64,000 nt of DNA from Cupriavidus basilensis (GTDB taxonomy: Bacteria; Pseudomonadota; Gammaproteobacteria; Burkholderiales; Burkholderiaceae). Below the pieces are notes generated by a model. That model worked only from the letters and a program-made list of their open reading frames with translations. It ran no database searches and was not told the DNA's origin. The first letter of the stretch is position 1. Every line of letters starts with the position of its first letter. The translations under genes and the position numbers were made by a program. The DNA is taken from NCBI RefSeq assembly GCF_000832305.1, contig NZ_CP010537.1, positions 2,914,001 to 2,978,000 on the forward strand, read 5' to 3'. Shown piece by piece: positions 26,843 to 42,553 of this stretch.

Positions 26843-27478
26843 TCATGCCTGCGCTGTCCACGACGCCCGCGCCGCCAGCACCTCGCAGATCAAATCCGCC
26901 GCCTGCTCCGGCCCGACGACTTCGGTATCGATCGCCAGGTCAGGCGCAAGGGGGGCTTCGTACGGAGCGCTCAGGCCGGTGAACTGGCTGATCTGCCCGG
27001 CCGACGCCCTGGCATAGAGCCCCTTGGCATCGCGCTGCGCGCAAGCCGCGAAGCTGGCGCTGAGAAACACTTCAACGAACGCATCCCCGCCGATGATCTC
27101 GCGCGCCTGCTGGCGCTGGCTGCGCAGCGGCGAGATGAATGCCGCCACCACCCACAGGCCGCTGCGATTGGCGAGCCTGGCCACTTCAGCGGCGCGGCGG
27201 ATGTTCTCCGTGCGGTCCGCGTCCGAAAAGCCCAGATCGCGGTTGAGGCCAGCGCGCATTTCATCGCCATCGAGCAGCAGCACCGGATGGCCGGCGGCCA
27301 GCATCCGCTTGCGCAGGGCGTGGCTGAGCGTGGTCTTGCCCGCCCCTGATAGCCCGGTGATCCAGATCGTTCCCGGCCGGCGCCCGGTGTCGTGCGTTGC
27401 ATCTGGCGTGAGGTGCGTAAGGTGCGTGAGGTGCATGCTGTGCGTGATCCGGTATTTGGCGTCGGGCTGCGCGATCAA
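26843..27478 (-). CDS. cysC: Adenylyl-sulfate (APS) kinase
   Basis: Makes PAPS from APS and ATP. P-loop GLSGAGKTT (residues 42-50), LLLDGDEMRAGLNRDLGFSD and ENIRRAAEVARLA (APS binding), VVAAFISPLRSQRQQAREII, VFLSASFAACAQRDAKGLYA and FTGLSAPYEAPLAPDLAIDT are all intact CysC motifs. Two starts are possible. TTG 27476-27478 overlaps the upstream stop by 4 bp (TTGA). ATG 27434-27436 falls inside a 9-bp repeat encoding HLTHLTHLT. It closes the export operon and its product feeds the PAPS-dependent sulfotransferase at the operon head. No ATP sulfurylase or PAPS reductase is adjacent, arguing against plain sulfate assimilation. Confidence 0.9.
   Translation of the reverse strand: MIAQPDAKYRITHSMHLTHLTHLTPDATHDTGRRPGTIWITGLSGAGKTTLSHALRKRMLAAGHPVLLLDGDEMRAGLNRDLGFSDADRTENIRRAAEVARLANRSGLWVVAAFISPLRSQRQQAREIIGGDAFVEVFLSASFAACAQRDAKGLYARASAGQISQFTGLSAPYEAPLAPDLAIDTEVVGPEQAADLICEVLAARASWTAQA
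27411..27446 (-). repeat. 9-bp tandem repeat at the start of cysC
   Basis: Units aggtgcgta, aggtgcgtg, aggtgcatg, ctgtgcgtg cover the alternative ATG of cysC and encode HLTHLTHLT. A fifth degenerate unit precedes them. Confidence 0.85.
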
Positions 27479-29574
27479 AGGCCGCGTTCGCGCTGCATCA
27501 GACCCAGCAGCGCAGTCCAGGCATCGCCCGCCAGGCTATGGCGCTGGCGCGCCAGCAGCACGGTACCGGGCAGTTCGCGAGAAAGAGGGAGCGAATCGCA
27601 ATGCGACAAGCGCACGCGGAAGATGGCCGTGGTGGGCGCCAGCCCGTTGTGCTGGCTGCGCGTGACCGCGATGGGGCCGCCATAGAGGCTGGCCAGCGTG
27701 CGCTGCTCCAGGCCGGCTACATTGACCTGGTCCGTCTGCGCGGCGGTGCAGCGCACCGAGCCGAATTCCGGGAGGTTGGCGACAAAGACGCCGCTGCTGC
27801 CGGCGGTGAGCGCGGCATGGTCTTGCTCGCCGATGAAGGCCTCCGCCTTGAGCTCGCTACCCTGGCCGACGATATGGTAAAGCGGTTCGCCGCGCGCCAG
27901 CCATGCGCCATCGGCGAGGAACAGGTTGGCATCCACCACGCGCCCGGCGAACGGTGCGCGCACTTCCATGCGCTTGCGCTCTTCGGCAAGGCCCGCCACC
28001 TCCGCCTGGGCGGCGGCCCAGCGGCGGCGCAGCACATCGCCCTCCTCGCGCAGTTTGGTGGCAAACGGCTGCTGCTCCATTTGCCAGCGCAGTTGCTGCG
28101 CCTGCGCCTGCGCGGCGGCCAGGCGGAAGTCCAGTTCCGGCGAGACCAGCTGCGCCAGCAACTGGCCTGCGGCGACAGTCTGCCCGGCTTGCACCGCGCC
28201 GCCGCTCACATAGCCGGGCTGGGCCGCATAGAGCGACTGGCTCTGGCTGGCGCTGAGCACGGCCGGTGCGCGAATGGTGCCGCCCCAGGGGATCACGACC
28301 ACGGCCAGCAGCACGCCGAGCAAGACCACGGCGCGCCGGGTCTGCGCGTTCCAGTGGATATCCGCACGGCGGTGGCGCCACGCCAGCACTTCGCGAACGA
28401 CCGGCATGACGATGAACACGCCAAGCTCGATGGCCAGCAGGGCCAGCCCCAGCGTCTTGAAAAACAGGTGATAGACGGTCAGCGCGATGCCAAAGAACAA
28501 GCCGAGCCGGTAAAGCCAGGTCAGGATGGCGAAGACAATGAGGAAGCGGCGCCGCGAGGCGGAAAAGGATTCGGGTGCCGGATCCGCGAAGCCGAACAGC
28601 CGCTCCCGCAGCCACCAGCGCGCCATCGCGAATGCCCGGTCGTGCAGGTTGGGCATATTGAGCCAGTCCGCCAGCAGGAAGTAGCCGTCGAAGCGCATGA
28701 ACGGGCTGGCATTGATGGCGAGGGTCAGCAGCCACGTGCTGGTTGCCAGCATGAACGCGCCCGCACGCAGCGGCCCGTCCGGCAGGAAGCTCCACGCCAC
28801 CGTGGCAAAGGCGGCCAGCGCCAGTTCCGAGAGCATGCCGGCGGCGCCGATCTTGAGCCGGTCCTCGCGCCGCATCAGCTTCCAGGCTTCGTTGGTGTCC
28901 GTATAGAGTACCGGCCACATCACCAGGAAGGCGACCCCCATGGTGGGTACGCGGCAGCCGTAACGGTAGGCGGTAGCGGCGTGGCCCAGTTCATGCAGCA
29001 CCTTGGCCAGCGACAGCGCCAGCCCGATGCCCAGCAATCCCTGCAGGCCCGCATAGGAGGCAAAGGTATGGGTAAATTCATCCCAGCGGCGCGAGACCAG
29101 GTAAAGGCCAAGCAGGGCCACCAGCCCCACGCCCCACCAGAAGCGCGGCTTGAACGCCCATTCGACCCACGGCGCGCAGCGCTGCAGCATGGGCATGGGC
29201 CGCACCAGCGGCACGCGGAAGAACAAGTAATGCTTGAGCAGCCACATGGCCTTGCTCACGCGGTGCGCGCCCGCGATGCGGCCCAGACGCGCGCTGTCCT
29301 GCGCCCGCCACGCAAGCAGCAGGTTGTGCCGGTGGAGCAGCTGCACCACCGCTTCGAGTTCGTCCTCGCCCACGGTCAGCGTGGTCTCGCGGTTCACCGC
29401 ATCGAGCAGCGCGCGCGCTTCGCCAAGCGGCCAGCGCGAGAGGATCTCGAATGCCGGCCAGGATAGTTGATAGAACTTGTTGGCGGCCGGATCGTGCAAG
29501 GTCCAGGTGGGTGCGCCGCTGGGCTCGGCCGGACCGGGGTGCAGCGTGAGGTCCTGGCGTAATGGGGGCAACAC
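27475..29574 (-). CDS. PqqD-like / M50 zinc metalloprotease / HlyD-domain fusion, membrane exporter component
   Basis: 699-residue polytopic protein. Residues about 15-95 look like a PqqD-type peptide-recognition winged helix (TWTLHDPAANKFYQLSWPAF, then LLHRHNLL). A membrane region at about 145-430 carries the site-2-protease motif HELGH (His194, Glu195, His198) and the second metal-site region NASPFMRFDGYF (Asp296), so the protease looks catalytically competent. After a last helix near 405-425, a HlyD-type adaptor domain runs to the C-terminus: lipoyl halves AAQPGYVSGGAVQAGQTVAA and VRAPFAGRVVDANLFLADGA around a coiled hairpin. GTG start 1 bp after the upstream stop. It may take the place of the missing ABC ATPase and could cut a leader; both are inference. 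Confidence 0.82.
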   Translation of the reverse strand: MLPPLRQDLTLHPGPAEPSGAPTWTLHDPAANKFYQLSWPAFEILSRWPLGEARALLDAVNRETTLTVGEDELEAVVQLLHRHNLLLAWRAQDSARLGRIAGAHRVSKAMWLLKHYLFFRVPLVRPMPMLQRCAPWVEWAFKPRFWWGVGLVALLGLYLVSRRWDEFTHTFASYAGLQGLLGIGLALSLAKVLHELGHAATAYRYGCRVPTMGVAFLVMWPVLYTDTNEAWKLMRREDRLKIGAAGMLSELALAAFATVAWSFLPDGPLRAGAFMLATSTWLLTLAINASPFMRFDGYFLLADWLNMPNLHDRAFAMARWWLRERLFGFADPAPESFSASRRRFLIVFAILTWLYRLGLFFGIALTVYHLFFKTLGLALLAIELGVFIVMPVVREVLAWRHRRADIHWNAQTRRAVVLLGVLLAVVVIPWGGTIRAPAVLSASQSQSLYAAQPGYVSGGAVQAGQTVAAGQLLAQLVSPELDFRLAAAQAQAQQLRWQMEQQPFATKLREEGDVLRRRWAAAQAEVAGLAEERKRMEVRAPFAGRVVDANLFLADGAWLARGEPLYHIVGQGSELKAEAFIGEQDHAALTAGSSGVFVANLPEFGSVRCTAAQTDQVNVAGLEQRTLASLYGGPIAVTRSQHNGLAPTTAIFRVRLSHCDSLPLSRELPGTVLLARQRHSLAGDAWTALLGLMQRERGL

Positions 29575-29575
29575 G

Positions 29576-30919
29576 TTAAATGCCTATCCACTGGCGCGCG
29601 ACCGTCAACGGACGGCGCAGCGCATGATAGAGAAAAGGAACCCAGCCGGCCGACAGCCGCGCGGTGCCGCGCAGGCCAAGCCGCGGCAGGTCCTTGGCGG
29701 CAAAGCTGGCGCGCACGCGGTAGGCCAGCACGCCGCCATCGGTTTCGGCCGCAGCGTAGGATACGCTGATGATGCGGGCATCGAATGCCTGGGTCGGGTT
29801 GGCGTCCGGGTAAAAAGTGATCGTGTCGCCGGCCTGGATGCTGACCTGCTCGGCCACCGGCATCTGCGCGGTGAGTTCCACCTTGGCCGGGTCGGCCAGC
29901 AGCAAGACCTTCTCGCCAATGGTGACGGCCTTGCCCTGCCAGTCGTTCACATCGCCGAAAACGGCCACGCCCTCGCGCTCGGCCTTGACCTGCACGCGCG
30001 CCAGCTGCCTGGCGGTGTAGTCGAGTTCCAGCGCCTTCTGGTCCAGTTCCCCGCGGGTCTGGGCCATCTTGAGGCGGCTCTCGTCGTCGGTCACCGCCAT
30101 CTGCGCGGACTGGCGGTACGTCTCCTGCGCCGTATCGTAAGCGCGCTCGGCCACGGCGCGGCGGGTCTGCAGCGCCACCGTGTCCAGGCTGAACAGCGGC
30201 GCGCCTTGCGGCACCGGCTGGTTCGGCTGGACGTACACGCGTTCGATCACGCCATCGAGCGGCGCGCGCACCAGGAACGGATCCCGCGCAGACACCTCGG
30301 CCGGGGCCAGCACCGTGAGCCGCATGGGAATGAGGCAGACCACCAGCAGGCCGAGCAGGACCCGGCGGCGGGTTCGCCCCGGCCGCAGCATGGCCTTGAG
30401 CCGCTGGCCCAGCGGCTGCGCGGGCCGGAACGCCGCCAGGGCGTGGCCGTAGGCATGCGTGACTTCGGCCAGCACCGCCAGCTCGTGCTCGGTAAACGGC
30501 GCTTCGCGCGCGAGCAGCAGCGCGCCGTCGCGCCGGCCGAGCTGGTCTTTGAGCGGCAGCCACAGGGCGTGCGCGGGCAGCCAGTCTGCCCAGTCGGCGC
30601 TGGTTTTAGCGGGCGCGGCACCCGCATCGACGGGCGTGGTATCGGCGTGGGCATGAGCCAGCCCACGGCAGAGCTGGGTCAGCCATTGCAGATAAGGCGC
30701 GTTGGGGTCGACCTGCGGCAGGCCGGATACGGCCGAGACCTGGCCCAGGCCGCTCTCCAGCCAGACCGCCGCCTGCCGGTACGGCACGAGGCTGAGCGTC
30801 TCGTTGGCCATCACAAACCCGAGCGCCTCCACGCTTTGCGCTTCGCGCGCGCGGCGCTCCAGCTGCAGCAGCGCGAGCAGCGGGGCAACCGCCGTTGGTG
30901 CATCGGCGCCTTGCGTCAT
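29576..30919 (-). CDS. GAF-like domain fused to HlyD-type adaptor
   Basis: 447 residues. Residues about 10-165 form a GAF-like cytosolic domain (SLVPYRQAAVWLESGLGQVS, HALWLPLKDQLGRRDGALLL). One membrane helix (about 186-200) follows, then a periplasmic HlyD-type adaptor: lipoyl half APLDGVIERVYVQPNQPVPQ, an alpha hairpin (about 250-310), then VAVFGDVNDWQGKAVTIGEK and a beta-barrel domain. A sensory-type cytosolic domain on an adaptor is unusual and suggests gating of export by a ligand or by the substrate. ATGA overlap with the upstream HlyD gene. Confidence 0.8.
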   Translation of the reverse strand: MTQGADAPTAVAPLLALLQLERRAREAQSVEALGFVMANETLSLVPYRQAAVWLESGLGQVSAVSGLPQVDPNAPYLQWLTQLCRGLAHAHADTTPVDAGAAPAKTSADWADWLPAHALWLPLKDQLGRRDGALLLAREAPFTEHELAVLAEVTHAYGHALAAFRPAQPLGQRLKAMLRPGRTRRRVLLGLLVVCLIPMRLTVLAPAEVSARDPFLVRAPLDGVIERVYVQPNQPVPQGAPLFSLDTVALQTRRAVAERAYDTAQETYRQSAQMAVTDDESRLKMAQTRGELDQKALELDYTARQLARVQVKAEREGVAVFGDVNDWQGKAVTIGEKVLLLADPAKVELTAQMPVAEQVSIQAGDTITFYPDANPTQAFDARIISVSYAAAETDGGVLAYRVRASFAAKDLPRLGLRGTARLSAGWVPFLYHALRRPLTVARQWIGI

Positions 30920-31686
30920 TTGTCCGCGAAACTCGCCCAGCCGCTCATGCCCGGCAGCAAGGAAGCCTGGCTGCCGTCGATCTTGCCGGTGATGGAAATC
31001 GCCTGGCTCACCGGGTCGATCCTGGCGCCGATGCGGCTGACCTTGGCCGGGAACGACTGGTTGAGCTCATCGACCAGGACCGTGAACGGCGTGCCGGGCT
31101 TGATGCGCGCCAGCCACCTGGACGGCACGATCATCTGCAGCTCAAGATCGCTGGAATCGACAATCTCAAGCAGCGGCTTACCCGGCGTGACAAACTCGTG
31201 CGCCATCGCCAGGCGCTTTGTCACGCGGCCCGAGAACGGCGCCGCGATGCTGCACTTGCTGACGGTGGAGCGCATATAGGCGGCCTCCGCGGCCGATTCC
31301 TTGGCCTTGGCTTGCGCCTGCTCGATCTCCAGCTTGCCGACCGAGTTCAGTTCCGCCAGGCGCTTGTTGACGGCAAGCACCTGCTGCGCGGCCTCGGCCG
31401 AGGCGTCGGCCTTGCGCAGCTGCGCGCTGAACAGCGCGCAGTCGAACGAGACCAGCGTCTGGCCGGCGCGGAAGCTGTCGCCGTCACGCAACGGCAGGCG
31501 GTCGATCTTGGCGTTGATCTCGCTGGAGATGGTGGCGAACTCGCGCGCTGCCAGCTGGGTCCGGATTCGGCCATCCTTGTCGGCGCCGGCAAACGTGGTG
31601 GGCGCGGCCACGGGTGCGGCACCAGCCGCTGCTGCCACCAGCAGCAGCGGCAGCAAAGCAGTGGCGTTTAATGCAAAGCGTTTCAT
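30916..31686 (-). CDS. HlyD-type periplasmic adaptor protein
   Basis: 256 residues from ATG 31684-31686 with a Sec signal (MKRFALNATALLPLLLVAAA). Lipoyl halves (RLPLRDGDSFRAGQTLVSFD and IAAPFSGRVTKRLAMAHEFV) flank a helical hairpin rich in Ala/Glu. A barrel domain follows (ELQMIVPSRWLARIKPGTPF). A TTG 21 codons upstream is possible but adds nothing signal-like. It is a soluble or lipid-free periplasmic adaptor, the third HlyD-type protein of the operon. Confidence 0.82.
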   Translation of the reverse strand: MKRFALNATALLPLLLVAAAAGAAPVAAPTTFAGADKDGRIRTQLAAREFATISSEINAKIDRLPLRDGDSFRAGQTLVSFDCALFSAQLRKADASAEAAQQVLAVNKRLAELNSVGKLEIEQAQAKAKESAAEAAYMRSTVSKCSIAAPFSGRVTKRLAMAHEFVTPGKPLLEIVDSSDLELQMIVPSRWLARIKPGTPFTVLVDELNQSFPAKVSRIGARIDPVSQAISITGKIDGSQASLLPGMSGWASFADK

Positions 31687-31770
31687 TACGGAGTGACGGT
31701 AAGACTGGATTACGGGATGACTGGCTTGCTCGATTGCTTGGTTGCTCAATTCGATTGCCTGGCTGCTTGA

Positions 31771-33336
31771 TTACTGAGCCTGCTTGGGCGGCTCAACCAA
31801 GGTCTTCTCGTGCTCGGCGATGGCCGCGCGCAAGGTCGGCAGGTCATAGCCGCCAACCGCGGTCGGCAACGGGTCCAGGCCCAGGGTTGCCATCATCTGG
31901 CCAGAGGCATTCTGCAGCGCGCCATAGGCTTGATACAGCCGCAGCTCGGACATCACCGCGCTGGCGCCTGCCCGAATCTCGGCCAGCTTGCCGGTTGCAT
32001 CGGAACGGGTGGCATTCTGCGTATGCGTCAGGATGCGCTGATCGACGTCGTTCATCTTGCCGGACAACTCGAAGGCACGCTTGTAGCCGATGTAACCACG
32101 ATATGCCACGTGCACCTGCGTCAGCACCGCCATGTTCAGCGCCAGGCGCTGCTGCTTGGCGACTTCATACTGCGCATCGGCGGCGGCACGGATGTTGCCG
32201 GCGTTGAGCAGGTTGAGCAGGTTCCAGCTCATGCGCAGGCCGATGTTGTTCCAGGCGTTGTTCACCAGGAAGTTGTCGGTGTCGAAGTTCGCGCCCAGCT
32301 GGAAGGTCACGCCCGGCAGCAGCTTGGCTAGGGCCTTCTTGGTTTCATCCAGGCCAATGCGCTCGTTGTAGCCCGCCTCGACCAGTTCGGGCCGGTTGAC
32401 CAGGGCGGTTTCTTCCATCTTGTCGGCGGCCACCGGTAGCTTGGGCAGGCTGAAGCCCGTTGGCGCGGCCAGCGTGTAGTCATCGCCCGGCGGCACGTTC
32501 ATGATCGAGGCCAGGCGCGGCTTGGCTTGCGCCAGCTCGTCGCGCACGGCTTCGAGCTGGCGCAGGATGTCCAGCAGCTGGCGCTGGTAGTTCAGCGTTT
32601 CCAGCGGCGACTGCAGCCTCTCCTTCTCGATGCGCTGGGAGTCGTCCAGCGCCGCTTGCGTCAGCTTGAGGATGGGTTCGACCTTGGCTTCGAGCTGCTG
32701 CGCGCCCACGGCTTGCCAGTAGGCTTGCCTGACCTGCTGCATCATCAGGTGAACCACCTTGCGGCGGCGCTCGCTCATCACCAGCACGCGGTCGGCCTGC
32801 TGGCGCGCGGTGTAGTAGCTGACGCCGAAGTCCAGCACGTTCCACGACAGGTTCAGGTCGCCGTTATAGTGCGAGCGCTCGGACGAGGTCGACGGCACCA
32901 GGGACTGCTGCCCGGTGACCACGTCCCTGGAGGACGAGGCGAGTTCGTTGCTGCGCCAGGCGTAACCGGCGTCGGCCGTCAGGCGCGGCAGCATGTCCCA
33001 GCGCGACAGGTCGAGCTGGCGCTGCGCCATGGCTTCTTCCATCAGTTTGAGCCGGCCGTCGAGGTTGTACTTCAGCGCGCGCGCCATGGCCTCCTCGAGC
33101 GTAACCGGGCCGGCCAGCGCCTCCTGGTTCTGGAACATCGCCTGGCGTTGGTCAGGCAGCTCGGCCTGGCGCTCGGCCAGGGTGGTGGCGACGGGCTGGA
33201 TGGCACAGCCGCCCAGCATCGCGGTGGCGGCCAGCACGGAAACCAGCCGTTTGGGTCCGGGTTGGACAAGGCGAGAGATAGCGTTCGACAACGGATTTTC
33301 CTCTTTCCGGGGATGCTGCGTTTTATATTGATTCAT
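31771..33336 (-). CDS. TolC-type outer-membrane factor (lipoprotein)
   Basis: 521 residues. Lipoprotein-type signal with LGGC (Cys44), then two OEP halves: VTLEEAMARALKYNLDGRLK, LNLSWNVLDFGVSYYTARQQ, VNRPELVEAGYNERIGLDET and LRMSWNLLNLLNAGNIRAAA are typical of TolC-like channels. It lies directly between the adhesin and the adaptor genes, on the same strand, so it is the outer-membrane exit of the export system. ATG 33334-33336. Confidence 0.88.
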   Translation of the reverse strand: MNQYKTQHPRKEENPLSNAISRLVQPGPKRLVSVLAATAMLGGCAIQPVATTLAERQAELPDQRQAMFQNQEALAGPVTLEEAMARALKYNLDGRLKLMEEAMAQRQLDLSRWDMLPRLTADAGYAWRSNELASSSRDVVTGQQSLVPSTSSERSHYNGDLNLSWNVLDFGVSYYTARQQADRVLVMSERRRKVVHLMMQQVRQAYWQAVGAQQLEAKVEPILKLTQAALDDSQRIEKERLQSPLETLNYQRQLLDILRQLEAVRDELAQAKPRLASIMNVPPGDDYTLAAPTGFSLPKLPVAADKMEETALVNRPELVEAGYNERIGLDETKKALAKLLPGVTFQLGANFDTDNFLVNNAWNNIGLRMSWNLLNLLNAGNIRAAADAQYEVAKQQRLALNMAVLTQVHVAYRGYIGYKRAFELSGKMNDVDQRILTHTQNATRSDATGKLAEIRAGASAVMSELRLYQAYGALQNASGQMMATLGLDPLPTAVGGYDLPTLRAAIAEHEKTLVEPPKQAQ

Positions 33337-33355
33337 GGCGTGATTCGCTATCGGC

Positions 33356-36300
33356 CTAGGCCTGCTCCGGTTGTGCTTGTGCTGGCGCTTGTGCTTGTGC
33401 TGGCGCTTGCGGCTGCCGGCTCATTTGCAGGTGGCGCAGCAACGCCGCATTGGCGGCCTGTTGCGCGGGCCGGCCAAACTGATCGAACTGCACCGCCAGC
33501 GCCGGCTTGCCGGCCGGCTGCGCCGTGGCGGCTTGCAGCAGGCTGGCCAACGGATCGGCATGGCTGGCGTCGCCCTGCGCGAGCGTGTCGGCGTGCTCCA
33601 GGCCCGCACGCGAGCCAGCCGGCGCTTTTACGTTCAGGTCCAGATGGCTGCTGGCGCGATTGCCCTTGCTGTCCCTTGCGGTGACTTCGATCTGGAATTG
33701 CTGGTTCATGCCTTGCGGCGGCTTGCCGGCCAGCGTGCCGGTCACCGGATCGAACTTGAGCCACGGCGGCAGCGGGCGGCCGTTGGCCAGGCGCACCTCC
33801 ACCGTCACCGTGGCTTCGCGGTCGCTCGTACGGAACAGGGAAGCCGGCAGCGCGATGCTGACCGCCTCGCCCGCCTGCGCCGAGAAACTGCCGATCTCCG
33901 GCATGGCCTGCAGGCCGACGCTGCCGGCGCCGCCAAAGTCGACCAGATTCATGCGCCCTTCCGGCGCCTGCAGTGCATAGCTCAGGCTGCCGGCCGAAAG
34001 CGGATCCGCATTGAACGGGTTCCTGCCAACGGCGTCGGCGCTGAAGCCGGTGCCGTTGCCGGCCGGGTTGAGCGTCGGCGCGTCGATGCCAGGCGCCGAG
34101 TCGAGCGCGGTCAGCGTGATCAGCGGCGCCGACGGGACTGGCGCCAGTGGTGCCGGCCCCGGCACGGGCACCGGGGCTGGCGCGGGCTGCGTCGTCAGAT
34201 GGACAGTCGAGCGCACCTCGTACGGATCGCCGCTCGCGCCCGCAACGAGCGTGTTGCCCGCGCGGTCGGCAATGCCCGTGCCGCTTGCATTGAGCGTCAG
34301 GCCAATCTGCCCGGAGCCGCCGAGACCGGTGACAAGCACGGTATAGGTCCGCGCATCGACCTGGGTGACGCTGCTGATCGTACCCGTTGCAGAGCCGGTC
34401 CGGGTCAGCGCGAAGTCGGCCGCATCCACGCCGGTGACGCCTTCGGCGAACGTCACGGTGTAGCTCACCGCGCGGCCCGAGGTGGGCGACGCATCCACGC
34501 GCGCAATGCCCACGGCCGTGGGCGGCGTGGTGTCCACCGTCACGGCCCGCGTATCCGCCACGCCGTGCAGGGACACATCGATCGCATTGCCGGCGCTGTC
34601 GCGCATCGTGCCACCGTTGGCCTGCAAGGCGGTCACGGTGATGCCGTCGGTGTCGTTCTGGCCAGCCGCAACGATGTAGCGGAAGGTCAGCGCGGTGGTC
34701 CCGCTCCCGGACACGTAATCCGCGTACACGGTCTGGCCACCGACATCGAGCGCCAGGCGCGGCGTGCCTCGGGTGGCATCGATCACCGTGTTCTCGGACA
34801 GGCTCACCGTGAAATCAAGCACCTTGCCAGCGTTGTAGTCGCCACCGGCCGGCGCGCTCACGCCAAGCACGACCGGGGCGGTGTGGTCGACCACGTAGCG
34901 CTGGCCAGCCAGGCCGCCGGCAATGGCATTGCCCGCCACATCGGCTATGCCGGTGCCGCTGGCCTTCAGGTCCAGGCCCAGTTGGCCGTCGCCGGTCACG
35001 TTGTTCACCACCACGCTATAGGTATGCCCATCGACCTGCGTCACCGAGGCAATCTGGCCGGCGGCCGTACCGGTGCCAGACAAGACGAAATCGCTCACGT
35101 CCACACCGGTGACGTTCTCGCTGAAGGTCACCGTGAAGTGCACGGCGCTGCCTGCGCTCGGCGTGGGGTCCGTGGCGATGACCGCTACCGCTGACGGCGC
35201 CACGGCATCGACCAGTACCCCGGTGGTGGATGCCACACTGTTCAGCGCGGTCACCGCATCGTTGCCCGCGACATCGCGCACCGTGCCGCCGTGGAGATCC
35301 AGCGCGGAGCCAACGGCCACGCCATTGCTGTCGAGCTGGCCGCTCGCCACTGTCAGGCGGAATGTCAGGGCACTGGTGCCGGAGCCGGACACGTAGCTGG
35401 CGTAGACCGTGCCGCCGGTGTCCAGCGTCACGGCGATGCGCGGCGTGCCCCCGGTGGTGTCGACCACCACGGCCTCGCTGTAGTTGACGGTGAAATCGAG
35501 GTTCTGGCCTGCGATGTAGGTACCGTTGGCCGGCACGCTGACGGTGGCCACCGTCGGCGCAATGCCATCGACCACGATGTCATGCTGGCCACCCATCGAA
35601 TGGGCACCGCCCACGGCGGGCAGGGTCAGTACCGCGGCATCGCTGCTGGCGTTGGTGATCACGCCGCCGTTCAATGCCAGCGCGGCTGACGACGCCACAT
35701 CGAGATCGGCGCTGCTGTCGCCCGCCTGCACGGTATAGCGGAACGTGAGCGTATTGGTGCCGGAGCCCGAGACGTAGGTGGCATTGCGGTCCACCGCGCC
35801 GGTTTCCAGCAGCAGGGTCGGCGTGCCGCCCGTGGTGTCGACGGTTACCGCCTGGTCGAACGTCACCACCACGCTGACCGTATCGCCAACCTTGTAAGTG
35901 CCATTGGCGGTAAGGGCATCGACGTTGGTGACGACGGGATTGATGCTGTTGACGGTGATCGCGATCGTATCGGTAGCCGTCTTGGCGCCGCCGGACCCCG
36001 TCAGCCCCAGGTCGTTCGTGGTGATCTGGATGCTGCCTGCGCCGTGATAGCCGGGCGTAGGCGTATAGACAAGGCCATTGAGCGCGGCGTTGATGTTCGC
36101 CAGCGTCCCCGTGAATGTCATGGTGGCGTCACCCGCACCGGTGCCGGTCAGAAAGGTCAGGCTCGACGTGCCGGAGAGCGTGATCACGCCGTTGGTTGCC
36201 GTCAGCGTCACTTGTTCGACGCCGCCGGCGGAATCGGCATCGCTGACCGAGATCAGGCTGCCGTTGCCGACGCTGAATGTCAGCGCGCTGTTCTGATCGA

Positions 36301-39300
36301 CACTCTGGGCCACTGGAACGGCGTTGAGCGGGCTGTCATTGACGGAATCCACGCTGACAAGCTTGGTGGCAGCGGCACTGTCGGCCGTGCCATCGTTGAG
36401 CGTGAAGCTGATGGTGCGGCTGCTGGTATTCGGCAGGTCCGACGTATTCGTATACGTGACGGATCGCAGCGCCGCCTGCCACTGGGCCGTCGTGGCGGTC
36501 GCACCTGCCGAGGTCAGCGTCATCACCCCGGTCCCGATGCTGTAACTTGCCGAGATATTGCCCATGGTGGCGCCGTCGTTGGTAAACGCCAGCACGTCCT
36601 CGGCGCCGTGGAAATTGCCGGTGATCGACACGGTGGCGCTGGCGAGCGTGGTGTTGTCCAGGTCGCTGACCGTCAATCCGCTGTCGATGACAACCGGCGT
36701 GCTGACGACGTTGTTGCCCTCGGTGAACGCGGTGGTGCCACCGCTAGCCGTTGCAATGGGCGTGTCATCGACCGCGGCAACGCTGACCGTCTTGGTGACC
36801 GTATTGCTATCGGCCGTGCCGTCGTTGACGGTAAAGCTGATGGTGCGGTTGCTGGTGTTCGGCGTGTCCGAGCTATCGGTGTAGGTGACCGAGCGCAGCG
36901 CCGCTTGCCACTGCGCCGTCGTGGCGCTCGCGCCGGCCGAGGTCAGGGTCATCACCCCGGTCGCGCTGTTGTAGCTCGCCGAGATGTTACCCATCGTGGC
37001 CGGGTTGTTGGTGAAGGCCAGCACGTCTTCACCGCCGTGGAAGTTGCCGGTGATGGCAACGGTGGCGCTGGCGAGCGTGGTGTTGTCCGCATCACTGACC
37101 GTGAAGCCGCCATCAATGGCAACCGGCGTGCTGGTGACGTTGTTGCCTTCGGTGAACGCGGTGGTGCCGCCGCTGGCCGTTGCAATGGGCGTGTCGTCGA
37201 CCGCGGTCACGCTGACCGTCTTGGTGGTCGTATTGCTGTCAACCGCGCCGTCATTGACGGTGAAACTGATGGTGCGGCTGCTGGTGTTCGGCGTGTCCGA
37301 GGCATCGGTGTACGTGACCGAGCGCAGCGCTGCTTGCCACTGCGCCGTCGTGGCGGTCGCGCCGGACGAGGTCAGCGTCATCACCCCGGTCGCGCTGTTG
37401 TAGCTCGCCGTGATATTGCCGTAGGTACTCGCGCTGGTATTGATAAACGCCAGTACATCTTCGCCGCTGTGGAAGTTGCCGGTAATCGCCACCCTGCCGC
37501 TGGCGAGCGTGGTGTTGTCCGCATCGCTCAGCGTGATGCCGCTATCGATGACAACCGGCGTGCTGGCAACGTTGTTGCCTTCGGTAAACGCGGTGGTGCC
37601 GCCGGAACCGGTGGCAACGGGCGAGTCATCGACGGCCGCGACGGTAACGACCTTGGTCGCCGTATTGCCATTGGCCGTGCCGTCATTGACGGTAAAGCTG
37701 ATGGTGCGGTTGCTGGTGTTCGGCAGGTCCGACGTATCCGTGTACGTGACGGATCGCAGCGCCGCTTGCCACTGCGCCGTCGTGGCGCTCGCGCCGGACG
37801 AGGTCAGCGTCATCACCCCGGTCGCGCTGTTGTAGCTTGCCGAGATATTGCCCATGGTGGCGCCGTCGTTGGTAAACGCCAGCACATCCTCGGCGCTGTG
37901 GAAATTGCCGGTAACGGCAACGGTGGCGCTGGCGAGCGTGGTGTTGTCCAGGTCGCTGACCGTGAAGCCGCCATCGATGGCAACCGGCGTGCTCGCGACG
38001 TTGTTGCCCTCGGTGAACGCGGTGGTGCCACCGCTGGTGGTAGCCACCGGCGTGTCATCGACCGCCGTCACGCTGACCGTCTTGGTGACCGTATTGCTAT
38101 CGACCGTGCCGTCATTGACGGTGAAGCTGATGGTGCGGTTGCTGGTGTCCGGCGTGTCCGAGCTATCGGTATAGGTGACCGAGCGCAGCGCCGCTTGCCA
38201 CTGCGCCGTCGTGGCGATCGCGCCGGCCGAGGTCAGGGTCATCACCCCGGTCGCGCTGTCGTAGCTCGCCGCGATATTGCCCATGGTGGCGGGGTTGTTG
38301 GTGAAGGCCAGCATGTCTTCACCGCCGTGGAAGTTGCCGGTAATGGCAACTGTGGCGCGGGCCAGCGTGGTGTTGTCCGCATCGCTGACCGTGAAGCCGC
38401 CATCGATGGCAACCGGCGTGCTGGTGACGTTGTTGCCTTCGGTGAACGCGGTGGTGCCGCCGCTGGCCGTTGCAATGGGCGAGTCGTCGACCGCGGCAAC
38501 GCTGACCGTCTTGGCCGCGGCATTGCTATCGGACGTGCCGTCATTGACGGTAAAGGTGATGGTGCGGCTGCTGGTGTTCGGCGTGTCCGAGCTATCGGTG
38601 TACGTGACCGAGCGCAGCGCTGCCTGCCACTGCGCCGTGGTGGCGGTCGCGCCGGCCGAGGTCAGCGTCATCACCCCGGTCGCGCCGTTGTAGCTCGCCG
38701 AGATATTGCCCATGGTGGCGGGGTTGCTGGTAAAGGCCAGCACGTCTTCGCCGCTGTGGAAATTGCCGGTAATCGCCACCTTGCCGCTGGCGAACGTGGT
38801 GTTGTCCGCATCGCTGAACGTGACGCCGCCATCGACCACCACCGGCGTGCTGGCAACGTTGTTGCCTTCGGTGAACGCGGTCGTGCCGCCGCTCGTGGTG
38901 GCAACGGGGGCGGCGTTCGGGACGTAGGTCTTGTCGAGGACACCGCCGGTGTCGTTGTAGATCTTGTCCGTGGCTGTGGGGCTGATACCGGTAGCCCCTC
39001 CGCCGAGTGCCGGGCCGCCGGCCCCGCTTGCGCCTGCGTTGCCGGCTATCGCCGCATAGGCCGAAGCCGTGATATGCACAGTGCCCTGGTTCCATATGGC
39101 ACCCACGCCCAGGCCACCGGCACCGCCGTTTGAGGCGCTCCCGCCCGAGCCCCCACCACCACCGCCGCCCCCGCCTGCGCCCAGGTTGTTGCTGATGATC
39201 GAGTTGCCAACCACATTGAGGGTTGCGCCAGTCGCGTTGAAGATGCCGCCTGCCGCGCTGCCACCGCCGCCGCCGGTGGCATCCCAGCCGCTGCCGCCGC

Positions 39301-40855
39301 CGCCGCCGCCGATCCAGATGGAGCCGTTGGTGGCAGTCCCCCCCCTGCCGCCGTTCGAATAGCCTGCAGTGCCGGTGCCCCCCGCACCGCCAGTGGTAGC
39401 GCCGCCACGGCCTCCCATGTAGGCCGGGTCGTAACCGCCGCCGTTGCCGCCAACGCCGGTATGGCCTGACGTACCGGCATAGACACCTGTTCCTAAGCCA
39501 GCCGCGCCCCCCGCTCCACCGCCAACGCCGGACATGCCACCGCCGCCGCCGCCGCCGCCGCCAACAGCGCCGCCAGCATAGGGGGCGTGCACACCACCGC
39601 CACCGCCGCCACCGGAAGCCGCGTTGGCCGTGACGGTGACATCCGTCAGCGTCAGCGTCCCGGCGTTGTAGATACCGCCGCCCTGCGCGGCGGTTGCAGT
39701 CACCCCGCCGGCCCCGCCCGCCCCAGAAACCAGGCCATGCTCGATGACCAGCCCCTCCAGCCCGACGGTCGAGCCCGAGGTGATTTCCAGCACACGGCCG
39801 TTGTATTGCCCATCGAGCGTGACGTCGGCGACGCCGTCGTGATTGATGTCGCCATCAATGGTGAGGTTCTTGCTGATCACCAGCAGCGAACTGGGCGACG
39901 TGAGGGTCGACAGGTTGATCGTCATGCCGGTGCTGAAGGTGATGGTGTCACCTGCCTGCGCCGAATTGATCGCGTTGCGCAACGTACCGGTACCGCTATC
40001 TCCGGTGCTCGTCACGGTGATCAGCGCCAGCTCGTGCGCATAGGCGGATTCCGCGCTGGCCGAGAGCACCGAGGTGGCTTCGATCTGGCCGGTGGTGATT
40101 TCCAGGTTCCAGTCGCTGCCCGCGCCGGTGCGGTTGTCCGAGGCAGCAATATCGCGGCCCGTCAGCGCCGCCAGCGAGTCGACGAACGACAGGCCGGCCG
40201 CGCCTTGCGCGGTGCTGCAGGCATAGATCAGGATGTCGCCACCGCTCTGGATGCCGCTGCCGATCCTGGCCAGGCTGCTGGCGTAATTGCCAACGTTGTC
40301 GCCGGACAGATAGGTATTGCCAAGCCACAGGTCGCCGGCCTCGCCGTGCGCAATGATCTGGACGGACTTGGCGCCGGGGTGGGCCGACAGGTAATCGGCC
40401 ATCTGGGCCAGGCCGTCCGCGTTGCGGTTCAGGTAGACGATATCCGTGCCGGGCGCGACACCGGCCAGCAGGCTCGCGCTGTCTTCCACCCGGCTATCCA
40501 CGAACAGCACGTTGTGGCCGGATGGCGCCGGGGCCGGCGATACCGGCGCGGCGGCTTCGGCCGGCGCGGGAGCATGGCCGGCGGCGTCCGCCGGCTGGGC
40601 AGTGGCTGGCGCTGCGGCCGGTGCCACATGGCTATCCGTGAGGTGGCTATCCGCTGCGTGGCTGTCCGCCGGCGCGCCATGGCTATCGGCTGCCGGGTGC
40701 GGCGCCGCGGCTGCCGTCGCGACCGCGGCCCCGTCAAACATGATGCGGGGCTCCAGCGCCATGATCAGCGACGAGGAGAGCGGGCTGGACCGCTTTGCGG
40801 GCCGGGCCGGGATTGCAACCGCGCCCTCTACCTTCTGCTTCCGGGTCCACCACAT
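33356..40855 (-). CDS. Giant LEPR-motif / DUF4347 repeat adhesin (export substrate)
   Basis: About 2,499 residues from ATG 40853-40855, chosen because GAGGAG lies just upstream; an ATG six codons earlier is possible (numbering below uses that longer form). There is no Sec signal. The leader carries LEPRIMFDGA (40-49), as in other LEPR-type giant proteins. Then: DSH repeats (63-82); a DUF4347 domain (about 119-262) with HG (His176) and YACSTA (Cys219); a beta-helix segment opening GTLRNAINSAQAGDTITF; a very Gly-rich part (about 400-640); six 143-residue repeats (656-1512); about six Ig-like units (to about 2180); a Pro-rich linker; a putative-Ig domain (LPPWLKFDPVTGTLAGKPP); and an Ala/Gln/Pro tail. 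No RTX GGxGxD repeats are present. Likely surface or released adhesin. Confidence 0.88.
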   Translation of the reverse strand: MWWTRKQKVEGAVAIPARPAKRSSPLSSSLIMALEPRIMFDGAAVATAAAAPHPAADSHGAPADSHAADSHLTDSHVAPAAAPATAQPADAAGHAPAPAEAAAPVSPAPAPSGHNVLFVDSRVEDSASLLAGVAPGTDIVYLNRNADGLAQMADYLSAHPGAKSVQIIAHGEAGDLWLGNTYLSGDNVGNYASSLARIGSGIQSGGDILIYACSTAQGAAGLSFVDSLAALTGRDIAASDNRTGAGSDWNLEITTGQIEATSVLSASAESAYAHELALITVTSTGDSGTGTLRNAINSAQAGDTITFSTGMTINLSTLTSPSSLLVISKNLTIDGDINHDGVADVTLDGQYNGRVLEITSGSTVGLEGLVIEHGLVSGAGGAGGVTATAAQGGGIYNAGTLTLTDVTVTANAASGGGGGGGVHAPYAGGAVGGGGGGGGGMSGVGGGAGGAAGLGTGVYAGTSGHTGVGGNGGGYDPAYMGGRGGATTGGAGGTGTAGYSNGGRGGTATNGSIWIGGGGGGSGWDATGGGGGSAAGGIFNATGATLNVVGNSIISNNLGAGGGGGGGGGSGGSASNGGAGGLGVGAIWNQGTVHITASAYAAIAGNAGASGAGGPALGGGATGISPTATDKIYNDTGGVLDKTYVPNAAPVATTSGGTTAFTEGNNVASTPVVVDGGVTFSDADNTTFASGKVAITGNFHSGEDVLAFTSNPATMGNISASYNGATGVMTLTSAGATATTAQWQAALRSVTYTDSSDTPNTSSRTITFTVNDGTSDSNAAAKTVSVAAVDDSPIATASGGTTAFTEGNNVTSTPVAIDGGFTVSDADNTTLARATVAITGNFHGGEDMLAFTNNPATMGNIAASYDSATGVMTLTSAGAIATTAQWQAALRSVTYTDSSDTPDTSNRTISFTVNDGTVDSNTVTKTVSVTAVDDTPVATTSGGTTAFTEGNNVASTPVAIDGGFTVSDLDNTTLASATVAVTGNFHSAEDVLAFTNDGATMGNISASYNSATGVMTLTSSGASATTAQWQAALRSVTYTDTSDLPNTSNRTISFTVNDGTANGNTATKVVTVAAVDDSPVATGSGGTTAFTEGNNVASTPVVIDSGITLSDADNTTLASGRVAITGNFHSGEDVLAFINTSASTYGNITASYNSATGVMTLTSSGATATTAQWQAALRSVTYTDASDTPNTSSRTISFTVNDGAVDSNTTTKTVSVTAVDDTPIATASGGTTAFTEGNNVTSTPVAIDGGFTVSDADNTTLASATVAITGNFHGGEDVLAFTNNPATMGNISASYNSATGVMTLTSAGASATTAQWQAALRSVTYTDSSDTPNTSNRTISFTVNDGTADSNTVTKTVSVAAVDDTPIATASGGTTAFTEGNNVVSTPVVIDSGLTVSDLDNTTLASATVSITGNFHGAEDVLAFTNDGATMGNISASYSIGTGVMTLTSAGATATTAQWQAALRSVTYTNTSDLPNTSSRTISFTLNDGTADSAAATKLVSVDSVNDSPLNAVPVAQSVDQNSALTFSVGNGSLISVSDADSAGGVEQVTLTATNGVITLSGTSSLTFLTGTGAGDATMTFTGTLANINAALNGLVYTPTPGYHGAGSIQITTNDLGLTGSGGAKTATDTIAITVNSINPVVTNVDALTANGTYKVGDTVSVVVTFDQAVTVDTTGGTPTLLLETGAVDRNATYVSGSGTNTLTFRYTVQAGDSSADLDVASSAALALNGGVITNASSDAAVLTLPAVGGAHSMGGQHDIVVDGIAPTVATVSVPANGTYIAGQNLDFTVNYSEAVVVDTTGGTPRIAVTLDTGGTVYASYVSGSGTSALTFRLTVASGQLDSNGVAVGSALDLHGGTVRDVAGNDAVTALNSVASTTGVLVDAVAPSAVAVIATDPTPSAGSAVHFTVTFSENVTGVDVSDFVLSGTGTAAGQIASVTQVDGHTYSVVVNNVTGDGQLGLDLKASGTGIADVAGNAIAGGLAGQRYVVDHTAPVVLGVSAPAGGDYNAGKVLDFTVSLSENTVIDATRGTPRLALDVGGQTVYADYVSGSGTTALTFRYIVAAGQNDTDGITVTALQANGGTMRDSAGNAIDVSLHGVADTRAVTVDTTPPTAVGIARVDASPTSGRAVSYTVTFAEGVTGVDAADFALTRTGSATGTISSVTQVDARTYTVLVTGLGGSGQIGLTLNASGTGIADRAGNTLVAGASGDPYEVRSTVHLTTQPAPAPVPVPGPAPLAPVPSAPLITLTALDSAPGIDAPTLNPAGNGTGFSADAVGRNPFNADPLSAGSLSYALQAPEGRMNLVDFGGAGSVGLQAMPEIGSFSAQAGEAVSIALPASLFRTSDREATVTVEVRLANGRPLPPWLKFDPVTGTLAGKPPQGMNQQFQIEVTARDSKGNRASSHLDLNVKAPAGSRAGLEHADTLAQGDASHADPLASLLQAATAQPAGKPALAVQFDQFGRPAQQAANAALLRHLQMSRQPQAPAQAQAPAQAQPEQA
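33371..33406 (-). repeat. 18-bp (2 x 9) direct repeat at the adhesin 3' end
   Basis: Two exact copies of an 18-bp unit encode the QAPAQA-QAPAQA tail that ends the adhesin. Confidence 0.85.
36330..38910 (-). repeat. Six tandem ~429-bp repeats in the adhesin gene
   Basis: Six units of 429 bp (one of 432 bp) encode near-identical 143-residue modules, each with SGGTTAFTEGNNV, then DNTTLASATVAITGNFH, EDVLAFTN, GNISASYNSATGVMTLTS, TTAQWQAALRSVTYTD and SFTVNDGT. Differences are scattered single substitutions, so the array was amplified or homogenised recently and is prone to recombination. Confidence 0.92.
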
Positions 40856-40996
40856 ATCGCTCTCCTCGCGCATCCGCGCCGGGCACGGCTCAGGAGGCGC
40901 GCGGCGGGCTGCAATTTTCTGGTCAGTATTCTGAAATCGGCCAGCGAGTGCCAGCCCTTGTTCGTCGAACTAAACGCGCCAATCGATTCAATCGCG

Positions 40997-41836
40997 CTAA
41001 TCGAGCTTTGCGCGGATGACATTGGCCGCGCTTTTGCTGCCGTCCTCCCAGAACGACAACGCCGCGTACTTCTCGAACAGGTCCGGCGGCAGGATGCTGC
41101 GCCGTGCTTGCTTTGCCACCTTGGATTTCACCTGATGCAGGCCGGACACGCCCAGCGCCTGATCGAACTCCGGCGCGTCGTACTGCACGTTGTTGAAATC
41201 GTGCGCAAACCACGGCTCGCCGATAAAGTCATAAACCAGGCGCATTACCTTGTCGGGCGCCTGACTGAGCAGATCGTAGTCGACCAGCAGCAGGGAACCG
41301 GCGTTCTCGCCGTAGTAGGCTTCCTTGAGCGCGGCCCACGCAAAGCCAACCAGGCGATTGCGCTGCGCCAGGGTATCGACCCGGCTATAGACGGTGCTGC
41401 GTTCGGCGTCATCGGAAAACAGCTTGGTGTTTTCATACGGATTGGCGCGATACAAACGCTCAAGGCTGTCCATGACCCAGGCGACATTGCGCACGCAGGC
41501 AATCACCTTGGCATTGGGGAACAGATCCTGCAGCGCGGGCAGGCGTGCGCACCAGTTGCGATTGGTGTCGAACACCACGCCCTTGCCGGCCTTGTCCGCG
41601 TAATAGCTATCGAACAGGCCACGCAGCAGCCGGCGGCGCTGGTCCTGGGCGATCACCGGCCCGAATTCGCTGCCGGCGCTGCATTGCGCCAGCACGGCAT
41701 TGAACAGCGTCCCCACCGGACTCGTCATCCCCGCGTGGAACCGGGGATTCTGCAGCAGTAGCGCGGACAGCAAGGTTGACCCTGAGCGGGGTAGACCTGA
41801 GATGAAGTGGAACTGGTTGGAAGACACCCGATTCAC
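40997..41836 (-). CDS. PAPS-dependent sulfotransferase
   Basis: 279 residues. The 5'-phosphosulfate loop is FISGLPRSGSTLLSALL (residues 11-27) and the 3'-phosphate motif is VIACVRNVAWVMDSLERLYR (Arg116, Ser124); both are intact. Other segments (GLFDSYYADKAGKGVVFDTN, LLLVDYDLLSQAPDKVMRLV) fit bacterial protein/small-molecule sulfotransferases of the TPST-like type. GTG start, no clear Shine-Dalgarno. It leads the operon just before the giant adhesin and is matched by an APS kinase at the end, so PAPS-driven sulfation of the adhesin (perhaps on Tyr) or of a glycan is the natural hypothesis. Three degenerate 9-bp units straddle its stop codon. Confidence 0.88.
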   Translation of the reverse strand: MNRVSSNQFHFISGLPRSGSTLLSALLLQNPRFHAGMTSPVGTLFNAVLAQCSAGSEFGPVIAQDQRRRLLRGLFDSYYADKAGKGVVFDTNRNWCARLPALQDLFPNAKVIACVRNVAWVMDSLERLYRANPYENTKLFSDDAERSTVYSRVDTLAQRNRLVGFAWAALKEAYYGENAGSLLLVDYDLLSQAPDKVMRLVYDFIGEPWFAHDFNNVQYDAPEFDQALGVSGLHQVKSKVAKQARRSILPPDLFEKYAALSFWEDGSKSAANVIRAKLD

Positions 41837-42422
41837 CGCTGTTTTTATCTTTTAAGCCGGTAGTCTATGCGATGGACATGGCGCTCGTACATATGACAGA
41901 CGGGCAAGCTCGGGGCCGCCGCAAGGATTTTCAGCGGACTTGCATTGCAGGATATTGGCGTGCGGCAAGGCGCTTTCCCGCAAATCGCGCACCCGCGCGG
42001 GTTGGTGAATTGATACCCCTACAACGAGGGGATCGTATGCAATCTCCATAGCTGCGCTCAGGTATTCCCAGGCACCGGCCGAAGTGTTGACGGCAAACAA
42101 CGCCCGGCAGCGCCGTGGCCGACAAATACCTGAAACGAGGTACTTCACCGCCTTCCGGGGAAGGCTGCCCGGATTTTCAGGAAGACGTAACCGGTTTGCG
42201 AACGTACCGCCTCGCGCCGCTTGTTGACATGAGGGTTCAAGATTCAGCAGGAGGGGAAAAGGCGTGCAATTCGGACGCTCGCCGCCGACCGGCCGGCCGG
42301 TCACAAGCTGTCAGACTTGTGGTACTGCAGCATCCCTATTTGCGCACGTCCCAATACCCCAGCGGTCGTGCGGCTTGGCCGACATCCTTCATTTTCTGAA
42401 GAATTGATGCGCCAGTTTGACT
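41837..42422. other. Intergenic region upstream of the export operon (about 590 bp)
   Basis: This must hold the operon promoter and a long leader. A GTG-initiated 150-codon minus-strand frame (41852-42304) crosses it but has no family signature or ribosome site and is not called. A small hairpin (cccctcgttgtagggg on the minus strand) lies near 42015-42030. No known riboswitch class recognised. Confidence 0.4.
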
Positions 42423-42518
42423 CTACTGCAGATACGACAGGACCGCATTGAGCGCCGCGATATCACTAGCAGTTGCATTTTCACCTGTTACTTTAAAATC
42501 TTCTGCGACGAATGTCAT
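42423..42518 (-). pseudogene. Truncated toxin-like gene, copy A (N-terminal 31 codons)
   Basis: ATG 42516-42518 encodes MTFVAEDFKVTGENATASDI followed by AALNAVLSYLQ and a stop. It aligns with the start of the longer broken gene at 45085-45425 (AADLTVTSASQSDIAAVNAA, LRYPQ), so it is either a truncated copy or a short peptide. It lies 35 bp downstream of exported protein A on the same strand, mirroring the order at copy B. Confidence 0.5.
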
Positions 42519-42553
42519 GGAGATTATTAATAATAAAAATAGAGAGGATGATT

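Follow-up and report, generated by a model that had tools for sequence, protein, structure and literature searches.

The stretch of Cupriavidus basilensis DNA analysed here (64,000 nucleotides of contig NZ_CP010537.1, positions 2,914,001 to 2,978,000, "the window" hereafter) carries a run of genes whose five-gene core is read by us, with a probability of about one half, as a protein export route. The core comprises a giant repeat adhesin (P0006), a TolC-type channel (P0005), a free HlyD adaptor (P0004), a GAF-like/HlyD protein (P0003) and a fusion of PqqD-like, M50 protease and HlyD domains (P0002; "M50-HlyD" for it and its relatives), and the route would be guided by a short LEPR tag near the N-terminus of the adhesin, coupled to a protease, led through the HlyD and TolC proteins and driven by a SecA-type motor.

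In such a machine, the PqqD-like domain of P0002 would bind the LEPR tag, a SecA-type motor (the cell's only SecA in the case of the window, a dedicated short SecA beside M50-HlyD in what we call sister cassettes) would push the unfolded adhesin through the inner membrane, the tag would be cleaved by the M50 protease, and HlyD proteins and TolC would together make up the duct to the outside, where the DUF4347 domain of the adhesin, judging by its predicted fold, might process the protein near its N-terminus; the sulfotransferase and the adenosine 5'-phosphosulfate (APS) kinase encoded at the two ends of the run may add sulfate to the adhesin, or to a partner bound to it, prior to export. Judged on sequence evidence alone, the export route appears to be new, because no ATP-binding cassette (ABC) transporter is linked to it, which places the cassette outside type I secretion by the defining trait of that type, and because no description of the cassette was found in the open-access PubMed Central literature (subscription papers and preprints lay outside the search). 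We are more tentative, and would rather bet against it, about the wider proposal of a distinct Gram-negative secretion system, in which a site-2 protease incorporated in a membrane-fusion protein would read LEPR, giant proteins would be driven by a SecA-type motor into an HlyD/TolC duct with no ABC pump at all, and some lineages would first sulfate the cargo in the cytosol and have it self-processed outside by a caspase-like domain. Were this so, many kinds of proteobacteria, among them some Escherichia coli strains in which the genes are mostly plasmid-borne, would send out their largest surface proteins by a path that none of the named secretion types covers, with an easily recognised short tag and an intramembrane protease acting as gatekeeper; the LEPR motif and DUF4347 would gain a role, and the sulfation of bacterial adhesins would become testable.

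Association of the LEPR tag with M50-HlyD

What suggests most strongly that the LEPR tag is an export ticket is its link to M50-HlyD. When DUF4347 proteins were collected with a profile excluding the tag, and only the residues before the domain were read, the pattern LExRxxx[DS] was present in 52/52 proteins encoded in M50-HlyD loci and in 3/3 from other stretches of M50-HlyD genomes, versus 2/30 (28 distinct after duplicates) from 19 of 20 DUF4347 genomes without M50-HlyD; the looser [LMI]ExR picks out the same two, both from a 57%-complete genome (G189). An earlier count, for which the profile included the tag region (and which took in the locus L159 though it is without DUF4347), gave 50/50, 5/5 and 2/29, respectively. 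The tag is likewise present in all 18 giant open reading frames (ORFs) with their start present from loci not previously inspected. Where M50-HlyD is absent, the DUF4347 proteins of five genomes (G090, G210, G320, G362 and G368) have a hydrophobic, Sec-like segment at the start in place of the tag, the one of G320 also having a hydrophobic, basic tail that by reading resembles a surface-sorting signal. Since LExR thus tracks M50-HlyD and is lost, with Sec-like starts in these five, where M50-HlyD is absent, the N-terminal LEPR region behaves like the export signal that a preliminary description of the window had taken it for.

LEPR appears to follow the export machine and not DUF4347, and the latter seems to be the more loosely tied part, because M50-HlyD adhesins that are without DUF4347 (in G082, G193, G222 and G298) keep LExR. 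In a survey of 398 Pseudomonadota genomes (two M50-HlyD candidates were scored per genome, so that second copies are undercounted), M50-HlyD was found in 89, namely 78 strong cases and 11 of a weaker sister type (a split by score), and DUF4347 in at least 95. The co-occurrence with LEPR/DUF4347 proteins that had been named beforehand as a check emerged clearly: among the DUF4347 matches listed, 71 genomes have both strong M50-HlyD and DUF4347, seven M50-HlyD alone, 24 DUF4347 alone and 296 neither (Fisher p 5e-49, which is optimistic since the genomes are related). DUF4347 itself was considered as the export signal and rejected: in those 24 genomes, 20 of which are without any M50-HlyD, it is almost always without LEPR.

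The NCBI model for such starts, NF012209 (LEPR-8K), matches in 40/398 genomes, of which 39 have M50-HlyD and one, the 86%-complete G212, does not; open frames in the LEPR-8K-positive genomes reach ~19,000 residues. It matches neither P0006 nor any other protein of the window's genome, and the P0006 tag is assigned to the same motif type as LEPR-8K/LEPR-XLL by position and sequence only. Two variants can be told apart: in the canonical type, D follows LExRxxx in 53/53 tags (the sister-type L125 and L171 excluded), while the sister-type tag, [LMI]ExRxLLS[AG][DE], has S in 12/14 tags, plus L125 and L171, N in G143 and D in G271. Four of those 14 tags (G304, G018, G061 and G006) do not adjoin a sister-type M50-HlyD in the DNA examined.

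Recurrence of the cassette

The gene set, the recurrence of which the preliminary description had marked for checking, is widespread in proteobacteria, its core recurring on both chromosomes and plasmids. In the 80 named loci (the best 80 of at least 563 M50-HlyD relatives) and 79 further stretches, some of them from the same genome (both sets include stretches ending at contig ends or at the limits of the DNA fetched), GAF-HlyD adjoins M50-HlyD in 79/80 and 74/79, an HlyD gene lies near it in 67/80 and 69/79, TolC in 66/80 and 50/79, and a giant repeat ORF is found within 12 kb in 62/80 and 58/79, respectively. Named hosts among these best 80 include Geobacteraceae, Desulforhopalus and Magnetococcales, and from the organism names we take the host classes to be beta-, gamma-, alpha- and deltaproteobacteria. 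The gene order is shuffled among loci and the adhesin gene is sometimes divergent, and the set therefore seems to be held together by function and not by one inherited order.

Plasmid carriage was seen in Burkholderia anthina and in E. coli, an IncF plasmid of which (NZ_CP081687.1; L219, L221) has the full cassette with a 13.4-kb gene for a 4,459-residue LExR adhesin, the start of which reads ...FALESRQLFDGA, followed by what by reading is a DUF4347-like stretch. The M50-HlyD gene of this plasmid is present in 24/5,426 E. coli genomes (in 22 of them the match spans 80% or more of the gene), and 21 of the 25 places where it occurs are on plasmids.

In three loci of Zoogloea and Azospira (L063, L065 and L068), GAF-HlyD and M50-HlyD are immediately preceded by a giant ORF, and neither a TolC nor an HlyD gene is found in the vicinity; L067, L069, L073 and L076 resemble them and end at contig ends. 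An M50-HlyD relative, 40% identical, is also encoded on a contig of the IMG/VR viral collection (L218), which may be phage or host DNA.

The sister cassette and its SecA-type ATPase

The sister form of the cassette has a SecA-type ORF of ~670 residues between or beside M50-HlyD and HlyD (Table 1). All four such proteins scanned show SecA_DEAD (1e-95 to 1e-100), PP_bind (preprotein-binding) and P-loop domains in Pfam, and the one tested against NCBIfam (L124) scores below the cut-off of every SecA/SecA2 model that it matched. Across 80 genomes chosen from the 398 (51 M50-HlyD positive, 29 negative), a second SecA, counted above 100 bits (matches of 20-32 bits were not counted) and short, is present in 17/51 positive versus 0/29 negative genomes, and in 11 it lies within 3 kb of a sister-type M50-HlyD. 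By its domains and position, a SecA motor is physically tied to the sister-form machine; for the system in the window, we infer the use of SecA, carrying it over from that sister form.

A SapC-family gene also adjoins the sister cassette at L174:11202-12044 (by Pfam) and at L124:4703-5593 (by sequence likeness only).

M50-HlyD and its HlyD/TolC partners

The protease of P0002 is probably active, because its zinc site and partner aspartate are invariant: H194, E195, H198 and D296, i.e., HExxH and NxxPxxDG-type motifs in membrane helices, do not vary across 27 aligned sequences, the relatives among which are 39-68% identical to P0002. Pfam finds M50 and HlyD in each of these 27 canonical members. 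The AlphaFold2 model (mean predicted local distance difference test score, pLDDT, 84.2; predicted template-modelling score, pTM, 0.63) consists of a beta3-alpha3 N-terminal domain, a helix bundle and a membrane-fusion fold, the last of which Foldseek matches to MacA/MexA/EmrA (best E 1.9e-11). Among NCBI's M50 models, the nearest are those of proteases that mature ribosomally synthesised and post-translationally modified peptides (RiPPs), namely daptide_HExxH (1.5e-45) and YydH/LiaK (8.6e-07), both below cut-off. The two further parts of the putative duct, the HlyD adaptor and the TolC channel, are both present in the window's run by Pfam, NCBIfam and Foldseek.

Two composite labels in the preliminary description stood in part. 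That of a PqqD-like/M50/HlyD fusion holds by direct Pfam match for M50 and HlyD, and not for PqqD, the profile of which matched none of the 27 canonical members; the PqqD-like part is predicted from the sister protein and the model. The M50-HlyD of L124 matches PF05402 (1e-4, 22.9 bits, just under the 23.4 cut-off), hhalign aligns the canonical family with that sister protein over the full length at 100% probability, and the beta3-alpha3 layout occupies the first ~82 residues of the P0002 model. The label GAF-HlyD similarly stands for HlyD by Pfam and not for GAF by direct match: Pfam GAF is absent from P0003 itself and weak in 3/18 of its orthologues (best E 0.0044), and the assignment comes from relatives, GAF being clear in the sister-form relative in L124 (6.6e-12) and hhalign joining the two families through the GAF region (98.6%).

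Weighing the readings

One rival reading is type I secretion in disguise, with a distant ABC transporter (in the window's genome, a 1,019-residue HlyB-like one) docking on HlyD/TolC, reading a C-terminal motif and pumping, and with M50 merely trimming. It has some material to draw on. The window's genome has five fused-type ABC exporters above the PF00664 cut-off (cyanophycin-associated, HlyB-like, MsbA and two others), and the HlyB-like one, with its long N-terminal extension, scores 620 bits, which is below the 725.55 cut-off. In 40 M50-HlyD-positive genomes chosen from the 398, with up to 49 first-look candidates scored per genome against NCBI cut-offs, the HlyB type was found in nine and the LssB type in 21, 25 together, and the PrtD type in 5/15 of those without either (it was sought in those 15 alone), i.e., 30/40 have one of the three. 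The C-terminal motif, too, could be a signal like those of type I secretion and is common among LEPR adhesins: a strict GKPxLxxQF-like pattern, written after inspecting the same tails, occurs in the last 60 residues of 71/104 long ORFs versus 1/3,639 body windows, and by eye the motif is present in 12/20 complete tails of loci not used to find it. None of the three ABC types, however, exceeds its cut-off in the other 10/40 genomes, so that such a partner is, as far as these searches go, not universal; the motif is absent from the sister-form tails seen and from 8/20 of the unseen complete tails, where the C-terminal hidden Markov model (L039, L063 and L069 dropped before its training) also scored weakly, and a universal C-terminal signal was rejected for that reason. 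Nor is an HlyB/LapB-type gene consistently adjacent in relatives, which the preliminary description had named as a refuting find: within 6 kb of M50-HlyD, at most 4/80 named loci and 3/79 further stretches have an ABC-matching ORF of 500 residues or longer, and these are upper bounds, as two of five ABC seeds were antisense frames (L084, L085) and some counted ORFs look antisense or MacB-like. An adjacent fused ABC exporter is thus rare among cassette loci, and type I secretion in disguise seems unlikely to us. An ABC gene lying just beyond the window's run was rejected as well, the nearest ABC matches in the window being ~24 kb off, beside a periplasmic amino-acid-type binding protein.

That the polytopic M50-HlyD itself replaces the ABC transporter, as an inner-membrane pump driven by the proton-motive force, is a rather improbable reading, even though no other partner accompanies LEPR proteins as constantly as M50-HlyD does and the window's cassette has no transport ATPase gene. 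To our knowledge, no site-2 protease is known to act as a conduit for proteins, and the sister cassette adds a SecA-family ATPase next to M50-HlyD, which makes SecA a likelier motor than the protease; the pump role given to M50-HlyD in the preliminary description is no more than putative, and a SecA-driven, LEPR-guided route appears to fit more of the data. The least probable of the readings weighed here makes the cassette a processing or surface-retention system, with Sec or some other route exporting the adhesin and M50/HlyD/TolC maturing it or exporting a small release-controlling peptide or signal. The kinship of P0002 with RiPP-maturation proteases, albeit below cut-off, speaks for it (our locus maps show ORFs of at least 90 residues, and small peptide genes fall below that scope); the loss of LEPR where M50-HlyD is absent, with Sec-like starts in five cases, points to export itself.

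Several observations weigh against the SecA-driven, LEPR-guided route, in addition to the ABC exporters and the C-terminal motif discussed above. The window's genome has one SecA and no second, as is the case for 34/51 M50-positive genomes, and a housekeeping SecA is present in every genome examined, so that its presence tests nothing. SecY, surveyed in 30 genomes chosen from the 398, is single in 14 of the 17 short-SecA genomes, where SecA would have to share it (G159 and G143 have two, and the SecY profile found none in G081); the window's genome has one. LEPR segments are less hydrophobic than Sec-like starts (mean best 12-residue hydropathy 1.49, n=58, versus 1.91-2.15, n=5), which is unlike ordinary Sec entry. 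Two M50-positive genomes, G057 and G203, show no giant tagged ORF in the stretches examined, and the Zoogloea loci are without TolC and HlyD nearby. As to the accessory step, P0006 has no tyrosine with at least three acidic residues within five positions, which speaks against a TPST-type sulfation site.

Comparison with known systems

Type I secretion exports giant adhesins through LapA/LapBCE and HlyBD-TolC systems, and the cassette shares with it the HlyD-type adaptor, the TolC-type channel and the giant repeat adhesin; it differs in being without a linked ABC ATPase, in having an N-terminal LEPR tag and in having two membrane-anchored HlyD proteins, one of them fused to a site-2 protease. 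The sister form resembles accessory Sec systems, which are built on SecA2/SecY2, in its second, short SecA beside a giant surface protein gene, but SecY is mostly single there, coupling to HlyD and M50 sets the machine apart, the only short SecA that was tested lies under all the NCBI SecA/SecA2 cut-offs matched, and the window's form has no second SecA at all. RiPP-maturation M50 proteases (daptide_HExxH, YydH/LiaK) share the M50 core and, in the sister protein, a PqqD-like N-terminal region, whereas P0002 is fused to an HlyD domain, linked to giant proteins and far below the cut-offs of those models. Like the NF012209 family, the cassette has giant proteins with an LExR tag at their start; that model does not pick up the window protein, its name refers to the motif, and among the annotations met there is no NCBI name for the machine.

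The Rax system of Xanthomonas (RaxST, RaxP/Q, RaxABC) likewise sets sulfotransferase and sulfate-activation genes beside adaptor/TolC export, using a C39 peptidase-ABC transporter for a leader-bearing substrate that was unidentified at the time of that paper (PMC4216712). The likeness is one of gene architecture and not of RaxST sequence, and the cassette differs in having a giant adhesin and M50-HlyD in place of the leader-bearing substrate and the C39 peptidase-ABC. DUF4347, in turn, shares its predicted fold and invariant His and Cys with caspase/CHAT-clan proteases and with the type VI secretion-linked Tce1 (PA0256; PMC13323088), from which it differs in lying near an adhesin N-terminus and in its protease role being predicted.

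The gene run and its features

The run lies in an 8.42 Mb Cupriavidus genome, the closest named M50-HlyD being that of C. basilensis OR16 (96% identity to P0002). As the preliminary description had it, seven minus-strand ORFs follow one another tightly from 41836 to 26843, in the order sulfotransferase, giant adhesin, TolC-type channel, free HlyD, GAF-like/HlyD, PqqD-like/M50/HlyD fusion and APS kinase, with successive gaps of 123, 19, 21, -4, 1 and -4 bp for the ORFs as listed. Their Pfam/NCBIfam matches, in the same order, are Sulfotransfer_3; DUF4347 and cadherin-like repeats; OEP; HlyD (RND_mfp type); HlyD; Peptidase_M50 and HlyD; and APS kinase. The claims of no ABC ATPase gene in the run and of an adhesin without RTX repeats agree with these matches, which include neither an ABC family among the seven ORFs nor an RTX family in the adhesin. 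Hydropathy and sequence reading, on which the signal-peptide, lipobox and start-codon calls are based, place the start of P0006 probably at the ATG at 40855, with AGGAG upstream, and that of P0004 probably at the ATG at 31686.

Table 1. Coordinates of the cassette's genes, domains and motifs (window positions) and of sister-form SecA-type ORFs (locus positions).
Feature	Position	Strand	Basis
P0001, APS kinase (supply of 3'-phosphoadenosine 5'-phosphosulfate, PAPS), lineage-specific accessory	26843..27478	-	PF01583 1e-56
P0002, PqqD-like + M50 site-2 protease + HlyD/membrane-fusion protein fusion, 699 aa, putative machine core	27475..29574	-	Peptidase_M50 and HlyD (Pfam); AlphaFold2 model
P0002, HlyD/membrane-fusion domain, about residues 433-676	27547..28278	-	Pfam HlyD_3; Foldseek
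P0002, HELGH zinc-protease motif, residues 194-198; partner Asp296 in NASPFMRFDGY	28981..28995	-	27-sequence alignment
P0002, PqqD/RRE-like N-terminal domain, about residues 1-85, predicted LEPR-tag reader	29320..29574	-	Sister homology; model
P0003, GAF-like + predicted transmembrane helix (187-205) + HlyD, 447 aa	29576..30919	-	HlyD matches; GAF via relatives; hydropathy
P0004, free HlyD adaptor, signal-peptide-like N-terminus	30916..31749	-	TIGR01730 above cut-off
P0005, TolC/OEP-type outer-membrane channel, lipobox-like LGGC	31771..33336	-	PF02321 3.4e-32; sequence
P0006, giant repeat adhesin, 2,505 aa as listed	33356..40873	-	DUF4347 + cadherin-like repeats
P0006, C-terminal GKPALAVQF motif, common to many LEPR adhesins	33485..33511	-	Matches by eye, not the strict pattern
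P0006, DUF4347 domain, predicted caspase/CHAT-clan cysteine-protease-like fold	40031..40510	-	Invariant His, Cys
P0006, LEPRIMFDGA tag near N-terminus	40727..40756	-	LExRxxx[DS] before DUF4347
P0007, PAPS-type sulfotransferase, adhesin-linked accessory	40997..41836	-	Sulfotransfer_3
Short SecA-type ATPases beside sister-type M50-HlyD	L124:9731-11743, L172:3311-5329, L174:12066-14045, L177:5783-7960

Accessory and neighbouring genes

The fold predicted for DUF4347 is that of cysteine proteases of the caspase/CHAT clan (CD), and its His and Cys are invariant in 13 sequences. A Burkholderia thailandensis DUF4347 protein, BTH_II1339, is listed among proteins raised in stationary phase in PMC12322963.

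The sulfotransferase and the APS kinase, tried as exporter parts and rejected as such, appear to be an add-on to the core machine, being near-absent from M50-HlyD loci: APS kinase occurs in 1/80 named loci, that of C. basilensis L001, and in 0/79 further ones, and the sulfotransferase in 0/80 and 2/79, a weak count as the 10-kb flanks of named loci mostly end inside the adhesin. Examined from the side of the adhesin, a sulfotransferase gene stands beside a same-strand DUF4347 gene in 6/71 cases with at least 1 kb upstream, three with M50-HlyD (the window, G054 and G130) and three without it and with a Sec-like start (G090, G320 and G368). Because genomes without M50-HlyD, too, have it next to DUF4347 genes, the sulfotransferase seems to track the adhesin, in a minority of cases, in either export setting. 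The closest solved protein to P0007 is TPST1, a weak match (E 0.0015), and tyrosine sulfation at TPST-like acidic sites was rejected, P0006 having none and the six sulfotransferase-linked adhesins (some partial) not being enriched (median 0 acidic-Tyr sites per 1,000 residues versus 0.75 in 74 others). Elsewhere, a plasmid of Nostoc sp. UHCC 0302 (L236:4131-7606) encodes an RTX protein, a sulfotransferase 58.6% identical to P0007 and then an APS kinase, and a P0007-like sulfotransferase of Komagataeibacter has no RTX or APS kinase partner.

Upstream of the sulfotransferase, three minus-strand ORFs of 150, 192 and 334 residues (window 41852-44440) have no Pfam/NCBIfam match and may be non-genes, and downstream of the cassette, also on the minus strand (21321-23918), an 865-residue ankyrin-repeat protein is encoded.

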